The position numbers and the translations under genes are program-made. Under the pieces are notes generated by a model, which did not search any database, was not told the DNA's origin, and saw only the letters and a program-made list of their open reading frames with translations. From a virus, in IMG/VR virus record IMGVR_UViG_3300025099_000070, positions 1 through 35,379 of that record: DNA of 35,379 bases. One strand, 5' to 3'. Shown piece after piece: positions 2,552 to 33,220 of the stretch (positions are counted from its first letter, which is position 1; each line of letters opens with the position of its first letter).

Positions 2552-3682
2552 CTATCCTTCTGGTACTGGTTCATCACTCAGATCAATATCATCTACCCCC
2601 AATTTGTCTGTTTTGTATTTCATAATACTAACATCACACATTTTTTGATAGATTTGATTTTTTAGATCTTCATTGCCCTCAAGCAATCCTTTCCAATCTT
2701 TGGATAAGAATTTATGAATTTCTCCGGTATCAGTATCTGTATATCCGTACCACGCACCTGATTGCGTAACTAACTTGTGGTTTTTCAATACATTCAACCA
2801 TCCACCATAATCATCCACTCCACTCTCAAATAGAATTTCAAATTCAGCTTTTCTCAAAGGTGGTCCCATTCTATTTTTGATAACTTGAGCACTCGTTTTC
2901 ATTCCAACTACTACATCTTGCTTGTCAACTTTTGTTTTCAGTTGTCCCATAGATTTTAATCGAAGTCTACAGCTTGAGTGAAACCCTACTGCTTTACCAC
3001 CTGATGTTGTCCATGGATCACCGAACATTACTCCCAACTTCTGACGAAGCTGGTTTGTGAACACTAGACATATTCTTTGTCTACCGATCATCTGAGTAAC
3101 TTTTCTCATTGCTTTTGATAGAATTATAGCTTTTGAAGTTGCCCAACCGTCTTTCTCATAATCCGCTTCCATTTCTACTTTCGTAGATGCTCCAGCTAAT
3201 GAGTCTACGACGATCGTTACCAATCTGTCTTTACTAGACTCTCTAACTTTGTTTATGATATTTTCAATTGATTCAAAGATATCTTCAATCGTTTCCAATT
3301 GTACATATAACATCTTTGATACATCCATACCAATAGCACGTAAGAACTCTTCGTTCATTGCGTTTTCAGTATCAATATAAACCGCTAAGCCATCTTTCTT
3401 TTGAGTATTAGCAAGTAGGTGAGCAGCGAGTAATGACTTACCCGATGCTTCAAGACCAGTTATTTCGGTAATTCTACCAACTGGTATTCCACCATGAGGT
3501 CTGTTTGCAATAGCTAGATCAAGCGTAGATGATCCAGTCGAAATCCACTCTGTTAAATCAGTTGGAGTATCTTCTGATCCATCTAAGAAATGTGCTACTT
3601 TATAATCTTTGAATTGTTTATTCAACGATGCTGCGAGCACCGTAGCCAGTTCATCCCTGACTCCTGCTTTATCTTTTGCCAT
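2552..3682 (-). CDS. uvsX: RecA/UvsX-type recombinase
   Basis: 376 aa. The RecA core shows Walker A GLEASGKS at 76-83, the catalytic-glutamate region YIDTENAMNEEF near 102-113, Walker B LVTIVVDSLA at 154-163 and the FTNQLRQKLG strand followed by a DNA-binding loop (WTTSGGKAVGFHSS). The canonical GxxxxGKS P-loop is more RecA-like than that of T4 UvsX. The acidic C-terminal tail (about 360-376) is typical of RecA/UvsX and probably modulates displacement of SSB. It should promote strand invasion for recombination-dependent replication. An AGAGG SD precedes the ATG, and the SSB gene ends 10 bases upstream. Confidence 0.92.
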   Translation of the reverse strand: MAKDKAGVRDELATVLAASLNKQFKDYKVAHFLDGSEDTPTDLTEWISTGSSTLDLAIANRPHGGIPVGRITEITGLEASGKSLLAAHLLANTQKKDGLAVYIDTENAMNEEFLRAIGMDVSKMLYVQLETIEDIFESIENIINKVRESSKDRLVTIVVDSLAGASTKVEMEADYEKDGWATSKAIILSKAMRKVTQMIGRQRICLVFTNQLRQKLGVMFGDPWTTSGGKAVGFHSSCRLRLKSMGQLKTKVDKQDVVVGMKTSAQVIKNRMGPPLRKAEFEILFESGVDDYGGWLNVLKNHKLVTQSGAWYGYTDTDTGEIHKFLSKDWKGLLEGNEDLKNQIYQKMCDVSIMKYKTDKLGVDDIDLSDEPVPEG

Positions 3683-3692
3683 AACTTACCTC

Positions 3693-4463
3693 TTACTTAA
3701 ATAATTCATCAAATGCATCGTTAACATCATCTACTTTCTTAGTCGACGATTGTGTTGATGTTTGCGTTGAAGCTGGTGCCGATTGTCCTACTGGAGTCTC
3801 ATCACCTGATCCTGGTTCTAACCATTCTGCTAATGCTTGTTTAAGATCATCGTATGATACTTCTTTGAAAATATCAGTAATATTCTTTTGACCATCCATT
3901 ATCATATTTGCAACATCTTTATTGTCTGTTGCAGCGGTTTGATTAGGTTTCACACGGATTGTAGTTTGTGGGAAATTTTTTCCAGTTTCTTCTTTTGTTA
4001 AGAATTCAACTGTAATGTCTCTTCCTGCTTGTAAATCTGTGATGTCACCATAATCTGGATCAGCGATAAAACTTAGTAGCTCTTGATAAACAGTCTTACC
4101 AAATCCCCAAAACTTAACACCTTCTGATTCTTGTCCTCTTACTAAGACAGGGACATAAGTTCTTAAAGTTGGATCAAGCTTTCTAGCCATTTGCCAATCA
4201 TCTTTATTACCGGTAGCTTTTAATTGCTCTGCAAATTCCGTTACTGGATCTGCTTTACCAAATGTTACTGGTGACAAGTAGTTCTTTTGTCCTAAGTTGT
4301 AGTGAAAGTACAATTCAATGAAAGGATTATCCTTGTTGTGTTGATAAGGTACGATTCTGATTTGTTGTTTGCCTGGTTCAGGCTTCCACAAGTTTGAAGT
4401 TCTTGTAGTCTGTGATTGCAAGTTATTTAATTTCTTGCGAATAGCGTCTAAGTCAATTGCCAT
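3693..4463 (-). CDS. gp32: Single-stranded DNA-binding protein (T4 gp32-like)
   Basis: 256 aa. The N-terminal basic segment (KKLNNLQSQTTRTSNLWKP) is like the gp32 cooperativity region. A central OB-fold-like core is rich in aromatics (FIELYFHYNLGQ, FWGFGKTVY). A low-complexity Ser/Thr/Gln linker leads to an acidic C-terminal tail (VDDVNDAFDELFK), the usual hook for UvsX and helicase loaders. There is no cysteine in the protein, so the zinc module of T4 gp32 is absent. A GGAG SD lies upstream of the ATG. It is first in the SSB-UvsX-exonuclease-helicase run and has both an early-type promoter and an ATATTTATA box upstream, as expected for a protein needed throughout infection. Confidence 0.85.
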   Translation of the reverse strand: MAIDLDAIRKKLNNLQSQTTRTSNLWKPEPGKQQIRIVPYQHNKDNPFIELYFHYNLGQKNYLSPVTFGKADPVTEFAEQLKATGNKDDWQMARKLDPTLRTYVPVLVRGQESEGVKFWGFGKTVYQELLSFIADPDYGDITDLQAGRDITVEFLTKEETGKNFPQTTIRVKPNQTAATDNKDVANMIMDGQKNITDIFKEVSYDDLKQALAEWLEPGSGDETPVGQSAPASTQTSTQSSTKKVDDVNDAFDELFK

Positions 4464-4983: not shown

Positions 4984-5385
4984 TTAGTTGTTTTTCTTGA
5001 TATAAATTACGTCTTCGATTTCAGTGTTAATTCTTCGAAGTCCATCATCATTTGTAACGAGCATTGTATTCTTATAATTATCCCAATCTACTTGATATGT
5101 TACGTCAAGAACTCCATTATTTAACAACTTAATCAGATTGTTTAATGCGTTTATAGTATATAACGTGTTTGTGTTTTTCTTACGGTGTAGTGATATGGTA
5201 TTTTCCATTATAGTAAAATCGCGAGATGCATCTATGTTGTATGTGCACATTAGATCATTAGCACTTCCAGCTTCTCTTAATACAAAGATCTTATTATATA
5301 AAACCGTGTATGTTTGGATAATGATATCTACTGTATCTGCTAAGTGTGGTTTTTGTGCGAATGTACATAGTAGCTGTGTTCTCAT
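4984..5385 (-). CDS. Conserved phage protein of unknown function (133 aa)
   Basis: Starts MRTQLLCTFAQKP; the body is mixed alpha/beta with segments VDIIIQTYTVLYNKIFVL and NTLYTINALNNLIKLLN. I recall similar small proteins (a KPHL...VDII...Y..LY.KI pattern and a TLYTINALN segment) in marine T4-like phages, always unnamed. No catalytic motif is evident. Its ATG overlaps the stop of the 732-aa gene by one base (TAATG), so translation is probably coupled. Three cysteines are present with no metal-binding pattern. Confidence 0.7.
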   Translation of the reverse strand: MRTQLLCTFAQKPHLADTVDIIIQTYTVLYNKIFVLREAGSANDLMCTYNIDASRDFTIMENTISLHRKKNTNTLYTINALNNLIKLLNNGVLDVTYQVDWDNYKNTMLVTNDDGLRRINTEIEDVIYIKKNN

Positions 5386-7583
5386 TATTTGTCACTCCTA
5401 ACTGATTGCGCAGCTTTTATTCTTGCCTGCATCGCTTGAGCATATTGTATAATAGTTCTTGTAGTTCCAGTAGGTCCGTCAGACGATCTGTAAGTCTTTC
5501 GACCTAGTTCAATCGGTTCTCCACCTTCTTCTGCGATAACATATGTAAATACAACTTTACCAGTTACAATTCCACCTTTTTCTCCTCCTGGACCATATGT
5601 GAGTTTTTCTTCTTCTTTTACTCTGAATTTATCTTTGAATTCTTGTAAACTGTTTACTCCCAGTGCTGCTCTCAGTGTATCTCTATTAGCTACCGTACCA
5701 CCCATATGAATATCAAATGCATTTGACATTATAGCTTTCAAACGCTTCTTTTGATCTGGTTCATTTGCATCATATTTATTATCATCTAATATATCCAAAT
5801 GGAATCCTTCTGTTACTTCTTGAGCTTCTTCCAGATCTCCTAATGGTGGTGGTCCTGAATCTACTTGATTTAATTTATTCTTACGATCTCTATGTATATC
5901 AACTACTTGATTTCGTCGTTTAGCTAATACTTTTTTTATGTTGATATCATCTGGTGCATCCTTCCCCATTTTTTTAGATAGTTTTTCAGCTATTTTTGAT
6001 ATCACCTTTAGATCGTCTGCTTTTTTTCCATCCGCAAATTTTGCATCATCTGGAGTTGGTGTTTTTATGAATGATCGTATTGCTTGTATCTTCTCTTTAT
6101 TAGACATATTTTGAGGATCTGCACCTTCTGGTATATGAGCTTGGTATTTTGGTTTTAACTGACCCTTGCTATCTAAAAGTGCTTGATCTAAATAGTTCTT
6201 TTTATTTTTTTTCATTTCCGCTTCAAGGACTTCTACTTGTTCATCTAAATCATAATTTTCAAGAGATCCAGCTATTGCAGCAGTTTGGTCATTGTATGTC
6301 GTTTCAATTGCAATCATTTGACTGTTGTGATTTTCTACCACCTTCTGAGCAGCAGCTTTCTTTTCTGGAGATAATGTTGTATTTGCGTCAATTCTTTTCT
6401 CTAAATCAGCCATATCATTACTTAATGTTTTACTACCTTGTGGATCCGATGGATCAGTCTTGTCTGAGTGAAATTGAATCAGTAGAGTTCCATTTTCATC
6501 CATGACAAAGGTTGCTGTATCTGATGGATTAAGCGTTTTACCTGATTCTTGGATCAACAATTCTACATCTTCTTTTCGTAGGGTAGTTCCATCAGGCATT
6601 ATTACTTTTTTAGCATTTGCTACTGCTTTTTTCTGGGCTGCAAGTGATTTGGCTGTACCGTAGAAAGTTTGTGTGTTTTTTGGAGTACCAAAATTACCAC
6701 TTTCTTGTAGATTTGATATTCTTTCTTGTGAAATAGAGTGTTTGTCTTTTGCTGCTCTGGCTACGATTAAACATTTTGAATATGTAGCTATTTGCCGTTC
6801 AGCTAATTTGAATGCTTCTGGATTCTCAGGGTTATCAATAGTACCGCTTCCTTTGGCTTTGTTCCTAGCTTCCCAAAATCTAGCTGGTATATCGTCTTTT
6901 ACTTGTCCTGAATAACTTTGTTCTTGACCTAGTGCAGTTTTACCAAATTCATTATACATCTTATCAGCTAATTCTTCTTCAGACATATCAGGGTTGTTAT
7001 CAAGTATATGCATACCTTCTCCTGATACTATCTCATTGAACGCTGAACCTGCACTTCCAGGTGCTGGCTTCTTAATTTCTCCAGTATATGGATCCTTTAT
7101 CTTATTTTTCTTGTAATATGCTTTTGAGCCTTTATACCCATGTTCTAATACATCATGCTTGTCTTGATTATCTCCATCTTCTAAGTTACCATGAACTCCA
7201 GTTGATGATCTTTTTACTTCAACATCTTTTGGAGCGTCTTTTTCGGGGGTATCGTCATTTTGTTTGCTGGTGGATTTAGATCCTTTGCTGGCTGCTTCTA
7301 TATCTTCTGGTGATGCATTCTTTTTGAGAACATCGTGGATATCTGGATTTATATTTTGTACTGCATACACTCGTCCAGATTCTTTATTCTTAACTAAATG
7401 TTTTGCTTTTTCAGTTAGAAATTCAATCGTTTCTTCTATTACTTGAGTTGGATACTTTTTAGATTGAAGTGTTTCGCGCAATACTCTTAAATCTTGTATG
7501 TTATACGGTTCATCTGCAAATCCGTGTGGATGTAGATAAAACCAATCTTCAATTACTTCATCAATGAGTTGTTTCAAGTTCAT
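5385..7583 (-). CDS. Large low-complexity phage protein, possibly virion-associated
   Basis: 732 aa, very rich in K, D, E, A and N. The N-terminus (1-70, MNLKQLIDEVIEDWFYLHPHG) is helical and looks ordered. Residues about 85-160 are charged and probably disordered. The middle has long helical or coiled segments (VEVLEAEMKKNKKNYLDQ). The C-terminal 130 residues look like a folded domain (FHLDILDDNKYDANEPDQKK; FDIHMGGTVANRDTLRAALG). No enzyme motif is recognised. Its start codon lies inside the end of the PolA-like gene (23-base overlap), so translational coupling is likely. There is only a weak SD. A packaged internal protein or structural protein is possible, but this is inference. Confidence 0.7.
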   Translation of the reverse strand: MNLKQLIDEVIEDWFYLHPHGFADEPYNIQDLRVLRETLQSKKYPTQVIEETIEFLTEKAKHLVKNKESGRVYAVQNINPDIHDVLKKNASPEDIEAASKGSKSTSKQNDDTPEKDAPKDVEVKRSSTGVHGNLEDGDNQDKHDVLEHGYKGSKAYYKKNKIKDPYTGEIKKPAPGSAGSAFNEIVSGEGMHILDNNPDMSEEELADKMYNEFGKTALGQEQSYSGQVKDDIPARFWEARNKAKGSGTIDNPENPEAFKLAERQIATYSKCLIVARAAKDKHSISQERISNLQESGNFGTPKNTQTFYGTAKSLAAQKKAVANAKKVIMPDGTTLRKEDVELLIQESGKTLNPSDTATFVMDENGTLLIQFHSDKTDPSDPQGSKTLSNDMADLEKRIDANTTLSPEKKAAAQKVVENHNSQMIAIETTYNDQTAAIAGSLENYDLDEQVEVLEAEMKKNKKNYLDQALLDSKGQLKPKYQAHIPEGADPQNMSNKEKIQAIRSFIKTPTPDDAKFADGKKADDLKVISKIAEKLSKKMGKDAPDDINIKKVLAKRRNQVVDIHRDRKNKLNQVDSGPPPLGDLEEAQEVTEGFHLDILDDNKYDANEPDQKKRLKAIMSNAFDIHMGGTVANRDTLRAALGVNSLQEFKDKFRVKEEEKLTYGPGGEKGGIVTGKVVFTYVIAEEGGEPIELGRKTYRSSDGPTGTTRTIIQYAQAMQARIKAAQSVRSDK

Positions 7584-8856
7584 ATTTAATGTCCGTCATG
7601 TTATTGTAATTATAGCCATGTTTCACTTTAACTGGAAACTTGATGGAGTCTATTACATCGTTTATAAATATCTGTTCGTCGGACAAATCAAAGTCAAATA
7701 AGAAGGAATCATACGTATATAGCACGAGTTTTGAGCGATATTTCTGCATAACCTTGTAAATTTCCGATAAAATCGAGATGTTATTCTCGGTTTCAAGTGA
7801 TTGGATGTAATAATTGAATAATTTCTGTGGTGTCATACTAGTTAACACATTCTTATACATCGGCCTCTTAAATAAATATGTGGGAATTGAGTTTTCCGTG
7901 TTAAATTCATGCCATAACTTTTTAATCAGCTTATCTACTTTTGCGAAGAATTCAATTTGCAAGAATTCTTTTGGGACTCCACCATATAATATACGAAAAC
8001 TTATTTCTTTAGATTCATTATATTCATCTTTGGTAAGAGTATCTTTTCCAAAATATTGCTTGCCAAGATATTCATGAACTGATCCGGTTGGTAATTCATG
8101 ATCCAACACATCTGCTATTAGTCTTATATGATAAGCATCAAAATCCATCTCTATAAGCTTACCATTTGAAAATCTACTTACAAATCGCTCTCTAGATCCA
8201 TCCTCTTTATTGAGAGCTGCATAATTTATGTTTTGGAATCGATTAGATGGTCTTCCAGTAGTCGTATATGGATTATATTGCGTATATTCGTATCCAGCTT
8301 CGGTATATAATCCTTGCTTCTCGATTTCATGTAATATTGGAATTGTTATATCATTATATGCATTGAAGTATTCGTTCTTTTTAAGATATATATTGGTTAT
8401 TCGTGTCAATTCGTTTTTTATCGATTGTACTTTCTCAAGATGTTTAGATATTGGAATTATTTGATTGGTATCTGATCTATTCCAGAACCTAGATGATATG
8501 AAATCATGAGATGTTGTGTTGTGTTGTTCTAAATCTACCGTCTTACCACACTCGATCCATTCGATCATGTTAATATCTATTAGATTACAATTGAGAAAAT
8601 ACATTACACTTTTCTTATCTATTGTAAATAAAGTTTTATCTGCTAGATGTTTATCTATTATAGTTAAATCTGCTAACCATACTGCCTCTGGGTGGTTGAT
8701 TGGTATTATTTGTATGTCTTCAGATATGAATATCAATAAGCTGATATTGTTGTTCATCGGGTGTTGTATATCGTTACAATATATAGGGATTATGATGGAA
8801 TTATCCAATCCATCCAATGCATCTATCAAAGATTCTTGTGATTCTATTATATTCAT
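7561..8856 (-). CDS. Degenerate family A DNA polymerase-like protein
   Basis: 431 aa. The C-terminal part keeps the PolA palm/fingers order: TTTGRPSNRFQNINYAAL at 198-215 (compare TGRLSS..PNLQNIP), motif A IEMDFDAYHIRLIADVL at 235-251 with Asp238, a motif-B-like KEISFRILYGGVPKEF at 283-298 and motif C LVLYTYDSFLFDFD at 377-390 with Asp383 in YDS instead of HDE. The N-terminal about 110 residues follow the layout of a 3'-5' exonuclease domain, but the DxE metal site is not visible. The thumb is very short. It could be a minimal repair polymerase or a non-polymerising relative. It has its own early-type promoter at 8873-8901. Confidence 0.72.
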   Translation of the reverse strand: MNIIESQESLIDALDGLDNSIIIPIYCNDIQHPMNNNISLLIFISEDIQIIPINHPEAVWLADLTIIDKHLADKTLFTIDKKSVMYFLNCNLIDINMIEWIECGKTVDLEQHNTTSHDFISSRFWNRSDTNQIIPISKHLEKVQSIKNELTRITNIYLKKNEYFNAYNDITIPILHEIEKQGLYTEAGYEYTQYNPYTTTGRPSNRFQNINYAALNKEDGSRERFVSRFSNGKLIEMDFDAYHIRLIADVLDHELPTGSVHEYLGKQYFGKDTLTKDEYNESKEISFRILYGGVPKEFLQIEFFAKVDKLIKKLWHEFNTENSIPTYLFKRPMYKNVLTSMTPQKLFNYYIQSLETENNISILSEIYKVMQKYRSKLVLYTYDSFLFDFDLSDEQIFINDVIDSIKFPVKVKHGYNYNNMTDIKYELETTH

Positions 8857-8872
8857 AACCTAAATTTTATCT

Positions 8873-8901
8873 AATATACGAAATTATTTTCGAATATGCA
8901 A
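8873..8901 (-). promoter_or_regulatory. Early/middle-type promoter for PolA-like gene
   Basis: TTGCAT (8901-8896), 17-base spacer ending TTTCG, TATATT (8878-8873) on the minus strand, just after the stop of the 223-aa gene. Predicted start near 8866, about 10 bases before the ATG at 8856. Confidence 0.75.
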
Positions 8902-9579: not shown

Positions 9580-12500
9580 TTATACTCCACCTTCAGGTTT
9601 GTTAGTTTTAGCTTCATTAGTTTCGTCAACATCATTATAAGATACATTACCGTTTATATTTATTGACATTCCTCCTATATTTGCATCTATTTCTTTCTGG
9701 GCAGCTGATTCTTCATGATACCACGATATAGGACTTCTAGTAAATTGTAATTGATCCTTACTTAGTTTCTTAAAGTTTATTCCTTCTTGTTTATTGAAGG
9801 CTCCTCCTCCTTGTCCTATAGTATAAACTCCCATATCAGTAGGTCGTCTACGCATTATAGCTTCTATTGTAGTTTTCCAACCAGATGTCGAGACATCATG
9901 CTTTACGTTTGTAACTTGAAAACATATAGTGTCTTTATATCGTTGTGGAAGATGAGTTGCTGTAACTGCATGTCCGAAGTGAATGCCGCTCAACCCATCT
10001 ATCTCGAACGACATCTTCAATGGAATTATATTATGATCTAATAATGCGTTGTCTCCTGCATTTGCATTATTTCTATCATTTAATATCGTTTTCAAAATTC
10101 TATCTGCATTGTTGATATGTTCTTCTGATAAATTTTCATGTATATGGAATGATAAGGTATGTCCTAATGATTGTACACGTTTTTCGGGTGATTTTGGGAC
10201 TACAAATATATCATCACTTTCTTCCGTTTCAGATGATACTATGGGTACCGAGACGTTTTCATGTGCAATATCGACAAACATATTTCCTAGCTCATAAAGA
10301 CTGTTTGGAACGGATCCATCATCATTCATAGTATTATTTCCATATAATGCTTGTACTGCCATGGCATTAGGTATCTTACTTTCCAATGAATAACCTCTTA
10401 CCATACTATCAGTTCTCATTACAGGGAATTCAGCTACTAAATCACACATTAAATTTGAATAATTAGCATCCACTATTCGAGTCGTTCCTGAATCTACACC
10501 ACCGTCTATCATAAACTTGAAATTCCATATATTACCACATGCTCCAGATATACCATCCAATACTTTTTGCATTGCGTCTTTGATCGTAGTTGCTTGATCA
10601 AAACAATCATATATAAATTCAGTATTTATCAGTATGTGAGATAAGTATCCATATTTCCTATCTGGATCGTCTGTGAATCTTTTATATCCCGATAAATCTG
10701 CGAGCATGGTATTTGCTGCATCATCTCCATATAGTTCTGGCTTAAATGCTGTGTCTCCTGGAGAAGTTACTATTCCCGTCTGACCTGGTAATATACACAC
10801 TCTCGGATCAGTTGATGCTAAGTACTTATGATTACATATTTTACTCGGCAAACTTACTGTTTGATACATTTCAGTAGGTACTCCACTTCCAATTCCATAG
10901 AAGTAAGTAGAAAGATTATTAGATGCATCTGAAAATCCATAATTATATCCATATACCGATGTATCAATAGCTGCTGGTTCTGATCCATCCTCTAATGTTT
11001 TCTTTTCTTCACCTTGATAATCTGACAATCTTGATTCTAAATTTATCGGTTGTATCCCAACTGAACCTACCGGTACATTGTTAGCAGTCATATCATTTAT
11101 ATCTACATTATAGCCTCCATCATTATAATCGAGGATCTTCTTTTGGAAGTTTTCTACACTTATCTTTCTCCCCAAGTCAGTACAATCTTCTGGAGTCTCT
11201 CTCGGTTCACCTGCTAATCTATGATCCCCACTATCAAATTTCACTAGTTTATGTCCTGATTTAGACTCTATAGCTATATTATCATTGACAATTTGTTCTA
11301 ACACACTGAATGGTATGAATATTTCCCCATCAGTAATTTTTCTATATTCCTCATATTGTGAGTACGCATCTGCGAATGCTAATTTTTTAGCTAAGGCTGC
11401 ATTCTTCTTCTTTTCACGGACTTCATTCATAAATTTTTTCTTTGCATCAGCAATATCACCTACGAGCCTGAAAGTTCCATCTGAATTTAATCTAGAATAA
11501 TGGCCAAATAAAGGCATAGGATAATCTATGAAAGGTGAATTTATTCCTGAAGGTAGAGTTCTAATTCTTATTGTTTCACGTCCTGATCCGGAAAGCCAAC
11601 CTGCTTTGGTACCATAATCTTGACCTACAGCTGAATATCCTGCAGGGGCTGTTGATCCTGCATGATACAACCCGAATGAATTTTTGTCTTGAGCTCTTCT
11701 CCAAGCACCACCTGCCATTGAATGCATATCTATACCAGATCTTAATCTCCCATGAATACCTATCGATGGATACTGTACATGTATTGCTCCTAGATATCTA
11801 CCTACATTACCACCCGTTAAATAATTTGGTAGTCCGTATCCATTATTCTTAGCTCCTCCAGCTCCTACCATCACATCCATTTCTTGCCAAGCTGATTGGG
11901 CTGGTGATATCTCTGTATCATTGGTGTAATAGTTAGTTTTTGTAATTGGATTAACACCTCCAATATAATTAGCTACAGTTGAACTACCAGGAATCGATCC
12001 GAAATGTTTAGTTATATAATTTTCTATATCCTTATCAAAACCTGCTTCGAATCCTAACGTTGCTGCATCTCCTGCATGTTTGCATGCACTTTTAAGTGCT
12101 TGCCCTAAAGTGCTTAACGGGCCAGCTGCACTTGGTAATGCATTACCAGAACTACCGATGTGTTTACCTGTATAGGTTTTGATCTGTCCACTTCCCTTAC
12201 CACCCGAATAGAATCCCGGAAACACTTTTGAAACAACATGGAGCATTGGATGAGAAACGAAAGATGCTTTTTTTGCACCGGAAAGAGTCTTATCCATCTT
12301 TCCTGCATACACTTCAGAAGATGGTTGATTTTCACTACCGTAGTTGGTATGGACGTATCTGTAGTAATCATAGAAGCCTTTAATAAGATTACCTCCTTTT
12401 GAAGGATTGTCATCATATGTTCTTAATGGAGAGTTAATTGTATCTGACCAGTTGCTGGCCCAAGGACCACCAGTTCCCCACGGAAGATATGCTCCAGTTA

Positions 12501-14352
12501 ATAATCTATATTTTTTACCTCCAATTGTAATCTCTTCTCGGTACATTGCTTGAACTGATGGAGCTCCTGTTCCTCCATAAAATACGTCATTATAAGTTCC
12601 TTTCCCTAAACCTTGTACATCCACATCACTATATGATTGTCCTAATAACGATCTAGATCGTTTGGAGTCTGTCCAAGGTGCCTTCGTCGATCCTATAAAA
12701 TAGAACCACGTACCATAACCTCCAACACTGGGGCCGGATGTTCTCTTATAATGAGAACCCCAAGTTGATGGAGCAATCATTTGACCATAATACGTCTCAC
12801 CAACAGAAGCTGGTTTTTTAGATAATCCATAATTTGTCTTTAGGTCACCACCATACTTATGTTGGTTATTGATACCACTCTCAGCATCTCCCGATGTTGC
12901 TCCAACAGTTGCTGTACTTTTTGCCATTACTCCACTTCCTGCACTATTTTTTGCAACTGCTGGGGCTATGATATCTCCAACATAATTTGCTATCGTTTCT
13001 TGTGCAATCTGTTTTGCTAATTTCTTTTGAACATCTGCATTTTTATTTCCATTTGTAACTGAATTTTTGGCAGCATCCGCTATTCGATTTCGTTCGGCTG
13101 CAGCTTGTTGCATTTTATATTTATAATACCATCTTGGAAAAGCTGGCATTGAAACATTTTCAGCACCTAGAATACTAAGATCGCCCGTCTGTCCTGCTAT
13201 CTTTCCGTTTAGTCCTACTGATAATGCTGCGGCATGGAATGATGGATAATATTGGTTTGGGAGAGTTCCCATTTTTGATTCTAAATGTTGTTGTGCTATA
13301 TTTCCATTAGCATCATATGCAATTCCTGTTCTAGAATGTTGAGTTTCCTTTCTATCCTTCGGTTCTATATTAAATTTTAATGCATTATATCTAGTCGAAA
13401 TTTTTCCTATTGAATGAAATAAAGGAGCATGAGCTGATTTAATCTGAGTTCCCAGCATAGCTTCACCACGAGATCTCATTGATATCCTACAATCGAAAGA
13501 TCCATTTTCTTTTGCTGACCAAGTATAATTTGTTATTGTTGCAATTGCTCCTTCATAAGAATAATTTAATGACTTTGATTTATCTAACAATGTTGAATGT
13601 AGTTTTGTTACATTTGATAAAACTTCATTATCAGTTATATCTACCAAGTTTTGTTGAACATTTCCTCCAGATGAATCTACTGACCATCCCCATTCCAATA
13701 AACATGTTATGCCAGGTGCCATAAATAATGATTCTATCATTTGTAATTGAGCGAAGTCGTGACATTGTACCGACATATCAATTTTTTTCAATGATCCTAA
13801 TTGGCCAACATTCTCAATAGAGATGTTAGTTATACCTGGAGTCGGTACCCCTGCTCGTGAATTCTTATCACTTCCTGGTCCTCCTCGGTTGGTTTTATAC
13901 CCTTCAAGTTTATTTCCGAAATTTCCTTCGAATCCACTATTATAGGTTGCATAATCGTCTAATATATTTGTATAGGTAGTAGGGTCTAAAGATGTATTCA
14001 TCATATCTTTCAATCCTCCTCCATATAAAACATTTTTTAATCTGTGGTGGTTTTTTCGTGGATGAGGATATATATGTTCTTCTCCAAAAGATGGCCACTT
14101 CTCTCTTGCTTCATCTATAGTTCCTCCATTGTTCGCCCAAAAAGTTCTGAACGAATTATTCATACTATCCCTAAGAACTGCGAATGAAGCTGCTCTAACC
14201 CACGGTGTTCTACTAAGCTTCCACTCACTTGCTCCGGATATACCGCTTGATAAATCTAATCGTGTTCCTCCCGATGAATTACCTAATACCTGTGCACGTT
14301 TCTCTAATTCATTCAGCACCGTTTCTGGGATTGGTGATAAAAATAATGCCAT
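9580..14352 (-). CDS. Giant baseplate hub/structural protein (gp27-like ends, 1590 aa)
   Basis: 1590 aa, about four times T4 gp27. The N-terminal third contains VQCHDFAQLQMIESLFMAPG and CLLEWGWS (about 196-225), typical of the large structural proteins of marine T4-like phages. The C-terminal section (about 1330-1530) has LSFEIDGLSGIHFGHAVTAT and a strand pattern ending in CFQVTNVKHDVSTSGWKTTI, like hub proteins that close with ...VTxVxHxVxxxxWxTxI. The central about 550-950 region is Gly/Ser/Tyr/Trp-rich and looks like an inserted beta-rich module. It lies between the LysM gene and the YHIH gene, in the baseplate cluster. Start: ATG with AGGAAAG upstream. The gp27 equivalence is inferred from local patterns only. 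Confidence 0.7.
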   Translation of the reverse strand: MALFLSPIPETVLNELEKRAQVLGNSSGGTRLDLSSGISGASEWKLSRTPWVRAASFAVLRDSMNNSFRTFWANNGGTIDEAREKWPSFGEEHIYPHPRKNHHRLKNVLYGGGLKDMMNTSLDPTTYTNILDDYATYNSGFEGNFGNKLEGYKTNRGGPGSDKNSRAGVPTPGITNISIENVGQLGSLKKIDMSVQCHDFAQLQMIESLFMAPGITCLLEWGWSVDSSGGNVQQNLVDITDNEVLSNVTKLHSTLLDKSKSLNYSYEGAIATITNYTWSAKENGSFDCRISMRSRGEAMLGTQIKSAHAPLFHSIGKISTRYNALKFNIEPKDRKETQHSRTGIAYDANGNIAQQHLESKMGTLPNQYYPSFHAAALSVGLNGKIAGQTGDLSILGAENVSMPAFPRWYYKYKMQQAAAERNRIADAAKNSVTNGNKNADVQKKLAKQIAQETIANYVGDIIAPAVAKNSAGSGVMAKSTATVGATSGDAESGINNQHKYGGDLKTNYGLSKKPASVGETYYGQMIAPSTWGSHYKRTSGPSVGGYGTWFYFIGSTKAPWTDSKRSRSLLGQSYSDVDVQGLGKGTYNDVFYGGTGAPSVQAMYREEITIGGKKYRLLTGAYLPWGTGGPWASNWSDTINSPLRTYDDNPSKGGNLIKGFYDYYRYVHTNYGSENQPSSEVYAGKMDKTLSGAKKASFVSHPMLHVVSKVFPGFYSGGKGSGQIKTYTGKHIGSSGNALPSAAGPLSTLGQALKSACKHAGDAATLGFEAGFDKDIENYITKHFGSIPGSSTVANYIGGVNPITKTNYYTNDTEISPAQSAWQEMDVMVGAGGAKNNGYGLPNYLTGGNVGRYLGAIHVQYPSIGIHGRLRSGIDMHSMAGGAWRRAQDKNSFGLYHAGSTAPAGYSAVGQDYGTKAGWLSGSGRETIRIRTLPSGINSPFIDYPMPLFGHYSRLNSDGTFRLVGDIADAKKKFMNEVREKKKNAALAKKLAFADAYSQYEEYRKITDGEIFIPFSVLEQIVNDNIAIESKSGHKLVKFDSGDHRLAGEPRETPEDCTDLGRKISVENFQKKILDYNDGGYNVDINDMTANNVPVGSVGIQPINLESRLSDYQGEEKKTLEDGSEPAAIDTSVYGYNYGFSDASNNLSTYFYGIGSGVPTEMYQTVSLPSKICNHKYLASTDPRVCILPGQTGIVTSPGDTAFKPELYGDDAANTMLADLSGYKRFTDDPDRKYGYLSHILINTEFIYDCFDQATTIKDAMQKVLDGISGACGNIWNFKFMIDGGVDSGTTRIVDANYSNLMCDLVAEFPVMRTDSMVRGYSLESKIPNAMAVQALYGNNTMNDDGSVPNSLYELGNMFVDIAHENVSVPIVSSETEESDDIFVVPKSPEKRVQSLGHTLSFHIHENLSEEHINNADRILKTILNDRNNANAGDNALLDHNIIPLKMSFEIDGLSGIHFGHAVTATHLPQRYKDTICFQVTNVKHDVSTSGWKTTIEAIMRRRPTDMGVYTIGQGGGAFNKQEGINFKKLSKDQLQFTRSPISWYHEESAAQKEIDANIGGMSININGNVSYNDVDETNEAKTNKPEGGV

Positions 14353-31470: not shown

Positions 31471-32607
31471 TTATTTTATCAATCCAGCTAGTTTCTTAAA
31501 CCTATCAGCCATTACATTACCTTCGTTAAGAGGTGTTGCTTTAGCAGCAGGTTTTGTTGATTTTGAAGGTTTTGATGCTAAACCTTCTGTAATTTTTTTA
31601 ACTTTCTTCGTCGCTTTTGCATCGTATTTAAGCGATTCAGCTAATGTAGAGTAAACTAATTTTACTTCTCTAACTGATCCCGCTCTATCAAAAGTTTCGA
31701 TCACTCTTAGTTTTTGACCTTCGTCAAGACCATTATTTCTAAACAATTTGTTTGTAAATAATAGTTTAGCGTTTAGCAAATTAACTTCAGAAAGTTTATC
31801 TTTCATAAATCTGATAGTAGCATACGCTTCTTTCAGTTTTTTAGTTTCTTCTGCCACTGGAGACTCAGGTTGTTCTACTGATTCACCTGCTTCACCGTCA
31901 TCTACACCAGCAGTATACTGGTCTTCTGATAATGATTTGATGATTTCTTCTAGATCAACTGGTTCTTCTTCGCCTTCTTCTGCATTCTCAGAAATCTTGT
32001 CCATGTTTTCGTCTTCAGATCCCATGGTGTTTCCAGGTGAAGTTTCAGTCTCTGCTTTTTCTTCATCATCGCCGTCAGCTACAACAACTTTATTGTCGCC
32101 GTTACCAACACCTGATGAATCAGATTGTTCTGCTACTGGTTCTTCATCTTCCATTTCTTCTTCAGTTCCCATTTCATCTTCAAGTTCTCTAATGATTGCT
32201 TCAAGTTCCATATCGTCTGCAGGAGCTTCTTCTTCTTCAGCCGCATCCATTTCCGGTGCCATTTCTTCACCTTCTTCTTCAGCTGCGTCCATTGCTGGAG
32301 CTTCCATTTCTTCTTCTTCAGCAGTTTCCATTTCTTCATCTTCGTGGCCTTCTTCATCACCAGTAGACATTTCCATTTCTTCTCCTTCGTAAGTCCCTTC
32401 TTCTTCAGAATCTAAAGCTGGTTCAGCTACTGGTTCTTCAACCGGTACATCTTCAACTTCCTCTTCTTCTTCTTCACGGATTTTTGCAGATAACATAGAT
32501 TGAAGTTTTGGCGTAAACGCTTCTTCAAGAGCTAGTTTTGCGTTTGCTATAGCAGTTTCTCTAACAGCTTTAGCATCAGCGATTGCTTCTTTTAGTAATT
32601 TGTCCAT
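31471..32607 (-). CDS. gp22: Prohead core/scaffold protein (T4 gp22-like)
   Basis: 378 aa. The helical N-terminus (MDKLLKEAIADAKAVRETAI) precedes a long Glu/Asp/Met-rich low-complexity region (about 45-250), with MDAAEEE occurring twice and many LxE-type sites that gp21 could digest. The C-terminal helical domain (LKEAYATIRFMKDKLSEVNL; NAKLLFTNKLFRNNGLDEGQ) is the conserved gp22 part that binds gp23. It builds the core on which the capsid forms and is then degraded. It has a leader of about 120 bases with three hairpins and a TATTTATA box. TATAGGAG precedes the ATG. Confidence 0.85.
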   Translation of the reverse strand: MDKLLKEAIADAKAVRETAIANAKLALEEAFTPKLQSMLSAKIREEEEEEVEDVPVEEPVAEPALDSEEEGTYEGEEMEMSTGDEEGHEDEEMETAEEEEMEAPAMDAAEEEGEEMAPEMDAAEEEEAPADDMELEAIIRELEDEMGTEEEMEDEEPVAEQSDSSGVGNGDNKVVVADGDDEEKAETETSPGNTMGSEDENMDKISENAEEGEEEPVDLEEIIKSLSEDQYTAGVDDGEAGESVEQPESPVAEETKKLKEAYATIRFMKDKLSEVNLLNAKLLFTNKLFRNNGLDEGQKLRVIETFDRAGSVREVKLVYSTLAESLKYDAKATKKVKKITEGLASKPSKSTKPAAKATPLNEGNVMADRFKKLAGLIK

Positions 32608-32802: not shown

Positions 32803-33156
32803 TTATCGGATTTTTCTGAAATCCCAGACTGTATTCCTGTCATATCTAGCTCTATCTCTATCAAGCTTCTTTTGCCAACGTTGAGCTTCTTCCATCTTAA
32901 CTCTCTTTACTTGAGATTTTTTAGTGTAATACCTACGTTCTCTATACTCCGATATTACTCCAGCTTCCTTCATCTCTTTTTTGAGTTTTTTGAGTGCTAG
33001 CTCAATATTACCATCCAATACCTTTATACCAAGTGCTCCTGGTATGAAGTATTCGTGTTTACCACGTCTTGGTCTACGAAATCCTTTTTTGAAATTTTTG
33101 TGAGGAGGACCACTATCTCTCCTTCCATCTTGGCTACTGCCTTTGTCTTTTTGCAT
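32803..33156 (-). CDS. rpsU: Ribosomal protein bS21 homologue
   Basis: 117 aa. Residues about 43-108 match bacterial bS21: GIKVLDGNIELALKKLKKEM, EAGVISEYRERRYYTKKSQ and a KR-rich helical tail. E. coli bS21 is 71 aa; the extra length is a basic Gly/Arg/Lys-rich N-terminal extension (1-42) and a short C-terminal tail (RNTVWDFRKIR). bS21 sits on the 30S platform near the anti-SD end of 16S rRNA, so a phage copy could replace the host protein and bias initiation. It is flanked by an early-type promoter (33190-33218) and a terminator within the capsid cluster. It has no SD: the leader before ATG is AT-rich (ACAAAAATTGTACGT). Confidence 0.92.
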   Translation of the reverse strand: MQKDKGSSQDGRRDSGPPHKNFKKGFRRPRRGKHEYFIPGALGIKVLDGNIELALKKLKKEMKEAGVISEYRERRYYTKKSQVKRVKMEEAQRWQKKLDRDRARYDRNTVWDFRKIR

Positions 33157-33189: not shown

Positions 33190-33218
33190 TAAATATAAGA
33201 AATATTTTTTGATTTTGC
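33190..33218 (-). promoter_or_regulatory. Early/middle-type promoter for bS21
   Basis: TTGCAA (33218-33213), 17-base spacer ending TTTCT, TATATT (33195-33190), followed by TAG on the minus strand. The predicted start, near 33183, gives a leader of about 27 bases. It is the only copy of this element seen among the head and tail genes. Confidence 0.78.
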
Positions 33219-33220
33219 AA

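Follow-up and report, generated by a model that had tools for sequence, protein, structure and literature searches.

Genomic setting of the small polymerase gene

The DNA analysed here (the window) is a virus record of 35,379 bases with a T4-type gene content, comprising a major head protein, head maturation protease, tail sheath, tail tube, baseplate, PhoH, gp32, UvsX and a gp41-like DnaB helicase. The gene under study is a real ORF of 431 aa on the minus strand at 7561-8856, the position and length already given in an earlier note on this DNA, and from the ORF, a structural model and alignments it is predicted to encode a compact family A DNA polymerase, here called small PolA. Its upstream gene lies 45 bp away, and its stop is overlapped by 23 nt by the start of a 732-aa ORF on the same strand (5385-7583), a possible case of translational coupling. 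This ORF, without an assigned function or a confident family, lies between small polA and a 133-aa gene and is highly variable in length and sequence across relatives.

Wherever the flanks reach far enough the gene order is fixed: tail genes, small polA, the 133-aa protein, gp32, uvsX, 5'-3' exonuclease and helicase. The same order is found in the named members of the family, Flavobacterium phage immuto, Microcystis phage Mel-JY01 and the uncultured 484-kb phage LR756508. In the window the genes from small polA to the helicase are all on the minus strand. In most loci with a flank long enough, the conserved 133-aa protein (4984-5385) is encoded between the genes for small PolA and gp32. It matches no known family, immuto and LR756508 too have it beside small PolA, and it may be a partner of that enzyme. 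The gp32-like single-stranded DNA-binding protein (3693-4463, PF08804) is followed by the UvsX/RecA recombinase (2552-3682), by a 5'-3' exonuclease of the Pol I N-terminal/flap nuclease family (1502-2539, PF02739), which is the proposed partner in function, and by the gp41-like DnaB replicative helicase (106-1464); recombinase and helicase were recognised by domain and PHROG matches. Elsewhere in the window, a 1590-aa protein of the tail/baseplate module (9580-14352) has no PHROG match and counterparts of about 600 to 1590 aa, and a scaffold-like 378-aa protein (31471-32607) with long acidic low-complexity stretches adjoins the major head protein.

The earlier note ascribed to small polA a promoter of its own, and a candidate is present within the 45-bp gap in the form of the promoter-like motif TTGCAT-N17-TATATT (8873-8901, minus strand), 16 bp upstream of the start codon. 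Exact sites of TTGCAW-N17-TATATT also precede orf114, gp32 and the helicase, and sites with one mismatch precede the clamp loader gene gp44 and a FolE-like gene. A fifth exact site (33192-33220) lies inside the head module, upstream of a 117-aa gene (32803-33156). The window holds six sites with at most one mismatch, five of them exact, where 1.6 are expected, and a generic sigma-70 scan of promoter-like sites gave no excess (22 found, 27.8 expected). The sharing of this motif by small polA and the replication genes makes co-transcription likely, although small polA sits behind tail genes. In a 62-kb contig with an identical small polA (G001), ATATTTATAT-like stretches precede the structural genes for sheath, tube and tape measure, e.g. 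upstream of positions 3808, 7946, 10590 and 12356; unlike the motif before the replication genes, these are possible late promoters.

Family membership and distribution

Taken alone, the window sequence has no Pfam or PDB match in single-sequence searches, falls below the curated cut-off of Pfam DNA_pol_A (PF00476, 34.3 bits), and yields only a weak PHROG match to DNA polymerase (E 0.0076). It is too divergent for such searches to be of use, and a family alignment was therefore required. Relatives do pass the Pfam cut-off (immuto 42.7, L045 45.8, L019 37.0 and L072 37.7 bits), the family profile matches Pol I in the PDB by sequence (E 5e-7), and HHalign of the family against a Klenow-led alignment returned probabilities of 98.4-99.4%. 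The profile search that the earlier note had proposed thus succeeds through the family, and its results, with those from the model below, place the 431-aa protein as a highly divergent predicted family A DNA polymerase whose relation to the family is above chance.

The viral family comprises 199 confirmed loci in one scan, at least 552 in a profile scan and 312 in the immuto branch. Across a large aquatic T4-type phage lineage, represented by hundreds of contigs, small polA is conserved and syntenic, and not the oddity of one phage. A cellular origin or host gene was rejected, since a scan of bacterial and archaeal genomes gave only seven matches, each on a short metagenome-bin contig that is probably phage. 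With 73% identity to L003, the gene has diverged more quickly than the replication genes around it (92-97%). It is under purifying selection, with omega at 0.05-0.14 over the gene; in each pair compared, the value was smaller for the polymerase part than for the N-terminal part.

Fold and active site

An alignment-guided AlphaFold model of small PolA (pLDDT 93, pTM 0.90) has its best PDB matches in the Klenow fragment (1kfd, TM 0.80) and other Pol I structures including Bst Pol I, which bears out the PolA fold expected in the earlier note; Pol nu and Pol theta were also returned by the fold search. Residue equivalences were taken from HMM-HMM alignment to Klenow, not from coordinate superposition. 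In this alignment the two palm aspartates, proposed previously as the catalytic pair, correspond to those of E. coli Pol I (D238 = D705, D383 = D882), and further equivalences are R202 = R668, K283 = K758, F287 = F762, Y291 = Y766, N348 = N845 and Q352 = Q849, all of them invariant or almost so across the family. D238, R202, H243, F287, Y291 and Q352 are invariant in 201 of 201 distinct family proteins, K283 is kept in 200 of these, and D383 in 199 of 199. The finger helix follows the K758...F762...Y766-G pattern with K283, F287, Y291 and G292. TGRPS, LYGG, both aspartates and YDS in place of HDE were all read correctly in the earlier note, but its QNI was not: Q208-N209-I210 is out of register with the QNI of PolA, whose Q-N pairs with N211-Y212 in the alignment, and the residue typical of the family is G209.

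Other positions depart from the typical family A pattern of Glu710, Arg754 and an HDE motif C. In motif A (aa 238-243, 8128-8145, minus strand) H243 replaces E710, and this His is found in all 201 family proteins. In the finger O-helix (aa 279-292, 7981-8022, minus strand) Y279 replaces R754, a position with Tyr in 184 and Arg in 17 of the 201. Motif C is Y-D-S (aa 382-384, 7705-7713, minus strand), the family having Tyr at the H881 position and Ser or Ala at that of E883. These changes mark a variant rather than an exclusion from family A, since E883 also varies in accepted PolAs (PMC9324360). The polymerase of Thermus phage Tt72, assayed and active, has Ser at the E883 position (PMC9324360), as do Roseobacter phage PolAs, so YDS gives no argument against activity, and small PolA is, as judged from its conserved residues, likely still catalytic. 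In E. coli Pol I, E710 is a steric block to ribonucleotides and helps to form a stable ternary complex (PMC9324360). Glu occupies this position in E. coli Pol I, in the large PolA of immuto and in Roseobacter phage PolAs, and the invariant His at the predicted ribonucleotide gate is the signature of the family and its most unusual feature. The replacement of the Glu710, Arg754 and His881 equivalents could impair or alter nucleotide use.

Reduction of the thumb and the N-terminal domain

The thumb is reduced, as the earlier note had supposed: about 80 residues, E. coli ~564-643, are without counterpart in the HMM-HMM alignment to Klenow. By model and alignment the remaining region (8251-8466, minus strand) consists of two long helices (aa 136-156 and 162-181) followed by motif 1 with R202. 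From this truncation low processivity would be expected. Preceding it is an N-terminal exonuclease-like domain of aa ~1-130 (8467-8856, minus strand, model and alignment). The DEDD ligands were not found at the positions of E. coli D355 and E357, where the window protein has P24 and Y26, consistent with the lack of visible metal ligands remarked upon previously, and where the family has P or V and S, Y, L or F, respectively. Ligands corresponding to D424 and D501 were not detected either, in a part of the N-terminal domain where the alignment is weak. A subgroup of 341-342 aa misses the domain altogether; this short form, modelled separately, reached a pLDDT of 89 and matched Pol I at E 3e-15, with a TM of only 0.57 by its own length.

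Replicase and primase in the lineage

T4 replication is a textbook system with one DNA polymerase. A homologue of gp43, which the earlier note advised to look for in the rest of the genome, is present and complete in G001, and thus in the same phage: a family B polymerase of 837 aa that includes an exonuclease domain, alongside the clamp loader subunits gp44 and gp62 and GroEL-like genes. On this ground small PolA was rejected as the replicase. Among 23 records with the small enzyme, a family B polymerase was found in 15 and a full-length family A polymerase (777-796 aa) in seven, both together in none and neither in one, a 114-kb fragment. The full-length PolA takes the place of replicase in immuto (L081:37898-40231) and six IMG/VR records (G013-G017 and G019), with family B in T4-type relatives, and in immuto its gene adjoins GroES/GroEL, near the place of gp43 in G001. 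The main replicase has been exchanged between families B and A within one T4-type lineage. The persistence of the small enzyme through this exchange implies that its task is not redundant.

The window's own phage is known from fragments only, and the test for a primase rests on records of the lineage. A gp61-like primase (phrog_47) is encoded in 13 of the 23 records and is missing from none of the 11 that reach 133 kb, and for the lineage a replacement of the primase by small PolA was rejected. The earlier proposal of a specialised repair or priming enzyme stands in its first half, a specialised and non-replicative role being likely, and a role in priming is unlikely given this separate primase.

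Proposed function

The account we favour, with confidence somewhat above even, is that small PolA is a compact, active, low-processivity, non-proofreading family A polymerase with an accessory role in gap filling, shared with the 5'-3' exonuclease encoded nearby. It would work beside a true replicase, gp43 or, in the immuto clade, the full-length PolA. The co-located exonuclease would take off RNA primers or flaps and small PolA fill the resulting short gaps, or small PolA may act at patches that gp32 and UvsX help to make in repair and recombination; polymerase and exonuclease together would then resemble a cellular Pol I "in separate parts". For an enzyme with established fold, catalytic residues, purifying selection, separate replicase, fixed neighbourhood and shared promoter motif, we infer the polymerisation itself, its low processivity and the gap-filling task. 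The link to the exonuclease is one of co-location only. T4 relies on gp43 itself to close Okazaki gaps, and the need for another polymerase is therefore not obvious.

A bolder version, which we hold possible and clearly less probable, is a two-polymerase system throughout the lineage, in which a minimal PolA with a rebuilt gate (His for E710, mostly Tyr for R754) would carry out a dedicated task, on the lagging strand, in gaps or linked to ribonucleotides, that is beyond both gp43 and the full-length PolA replacing it.

The main rival, unlikely in our judgement, is a recombination or lesion-bypass polymerase of the Pol theta/nu kind, extending D-loops made by UvsX or bypassing damage in recombination-dependent replication. 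The neighbouring uvsX and gp32, the family A palm without a proofreading site, the altered nucleotide contacts H243 and Y279, and the return of Pol nu and Pol theta in the fold search would all suit it. However, these polymerases are no closer than bacterial Pol I in sequence or fold, and small PolA, lacking Pol theta-type insertions, is reduced and not elaborated.

We give little weight to a polymerase tolerant of ribonucleotides or an enzyme that primes de novo. Such an activity would build on H243, invariant where E. coli Pol I, the large immuto PolA and Roseobacter phage PolAs have Glu, since E710 sterically excludes ribonucleotides in E. coli Pol I (PMC9324360). Yet the bulky His may itself act as a gate, F287 (F762) and Y291 (Y766) are retained, and the gp61-like primase in each of the 11 records that reach 133 kb argues against a need for priming. 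Very little weight is given to a dead polymerase that would serve the replisome without catalysis, in a structural or regulatory capacity, as a DNA-binding or clamp-bound accessory. The lost thumb and the replacements at H881, E883, E710 and mostly R754 could be read in this way, but the preservation of the active site speaks against this: equivalents of D705, D882, K758, Y766, Q849 and R668 in about 200 distinct proteins are unexpected without catalysis, and Tt72 pol is active with a D-S motif C (PMC9324360). That small PolA is the sole or chief replicase, as a far-diverged substitute for gp43, has practically nothing in its favour beyond its location in the replication cluster with helicase, gp32 and uvsX, against a full-length gp43 with exonuclease domain in the 62-kb contig and a full polymerase in 22 of the 23 records.

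On the favoured reading of an accessory polymerase, a large aquatic T4-type lineage would retain a second, minimal polymerase at a fixed site in its replication cluster. Since the small PolA stayed while the main replicase switched between families B and A, the division of labour among phage polymerases becomes directly testable, and the 341-342-aa forms offer enzymology unusually small natural family A polymerases with a predicted altered nucleotide gate.

Comparison with known systems

With Klenow and bacterial Pol I (PF00476), small PolA shares the fold, the order of motifs and the equivalents of D705, D882, K758, F762, Y766, N845, Q849 and R668. It differs in having about 80 thumb residues fewer, no DEDD ligands found, His at E710, Tyr at R754 in most members, and Y-D-S/A at H-D-E. 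The Tt72 polymerase is likewise of family A with a D-S motif C, but has 703 aa, active proofreading, Glu at E710 and a full thumb (PMC9324360).

Within the lineage, immuto KNV73_gp001 (NC_055915), annotated 'DNA polymerase family A', belongs to the same family (34% identity) in the same neighbourhood, whereas the replicase of immuto is the 777-aa family A enzyme KNV73_gp199 and that of the window's phage is of family B. Mel-JY01 WWT39333.1, labelled hypothetical protein, and its counterpart in LR756508, which is without annotation, are also members (~32%) in the same neighbourhood, with a family B polymerase elsewhere. The Mel-JY01 protein named 'DNA polymerase I' (TIGR00593), WWT39339 (L083:25366-26406), is the separate 5'-3' exonuclease. 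Through such naming, name-based surveys would miscount polymerases in phages of this kind, and counts of that name should not be taken to refer to this enzyme.

Far-T4 phages resemble the window's phage by gene content, with T4-type modules, queuosine genes and a phoH gene located close to that of the capsid, and the part of Roux et al. (2015, PMC4360716) drawn on here makes no mention of a small second PolA in them. Within the subset of literature covered, on immuto, Far-T4 phages, Mel-JY01 and dual phage polymerases, no description of small PolA was found, and its apparent position as second polymerase beside a replicase likewise has no published account within this incomplete coverage.

The closest analogy is offered by the group 2.2 jumbo phages, which are T4-type and combine a family B replicase with a second, reduced polymerase, a minimal Pol III alpha suggested to serve one strand or repair (Iyer et al. 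2021, PMC7824862). Their second enzyme has a polymerase beta fold, is split in two proteins and is unrelated to family A (PMC7824862). By this analogy, small PolA appears as the family A parallel to the minimal Pol III alpha of the jumbo phages.
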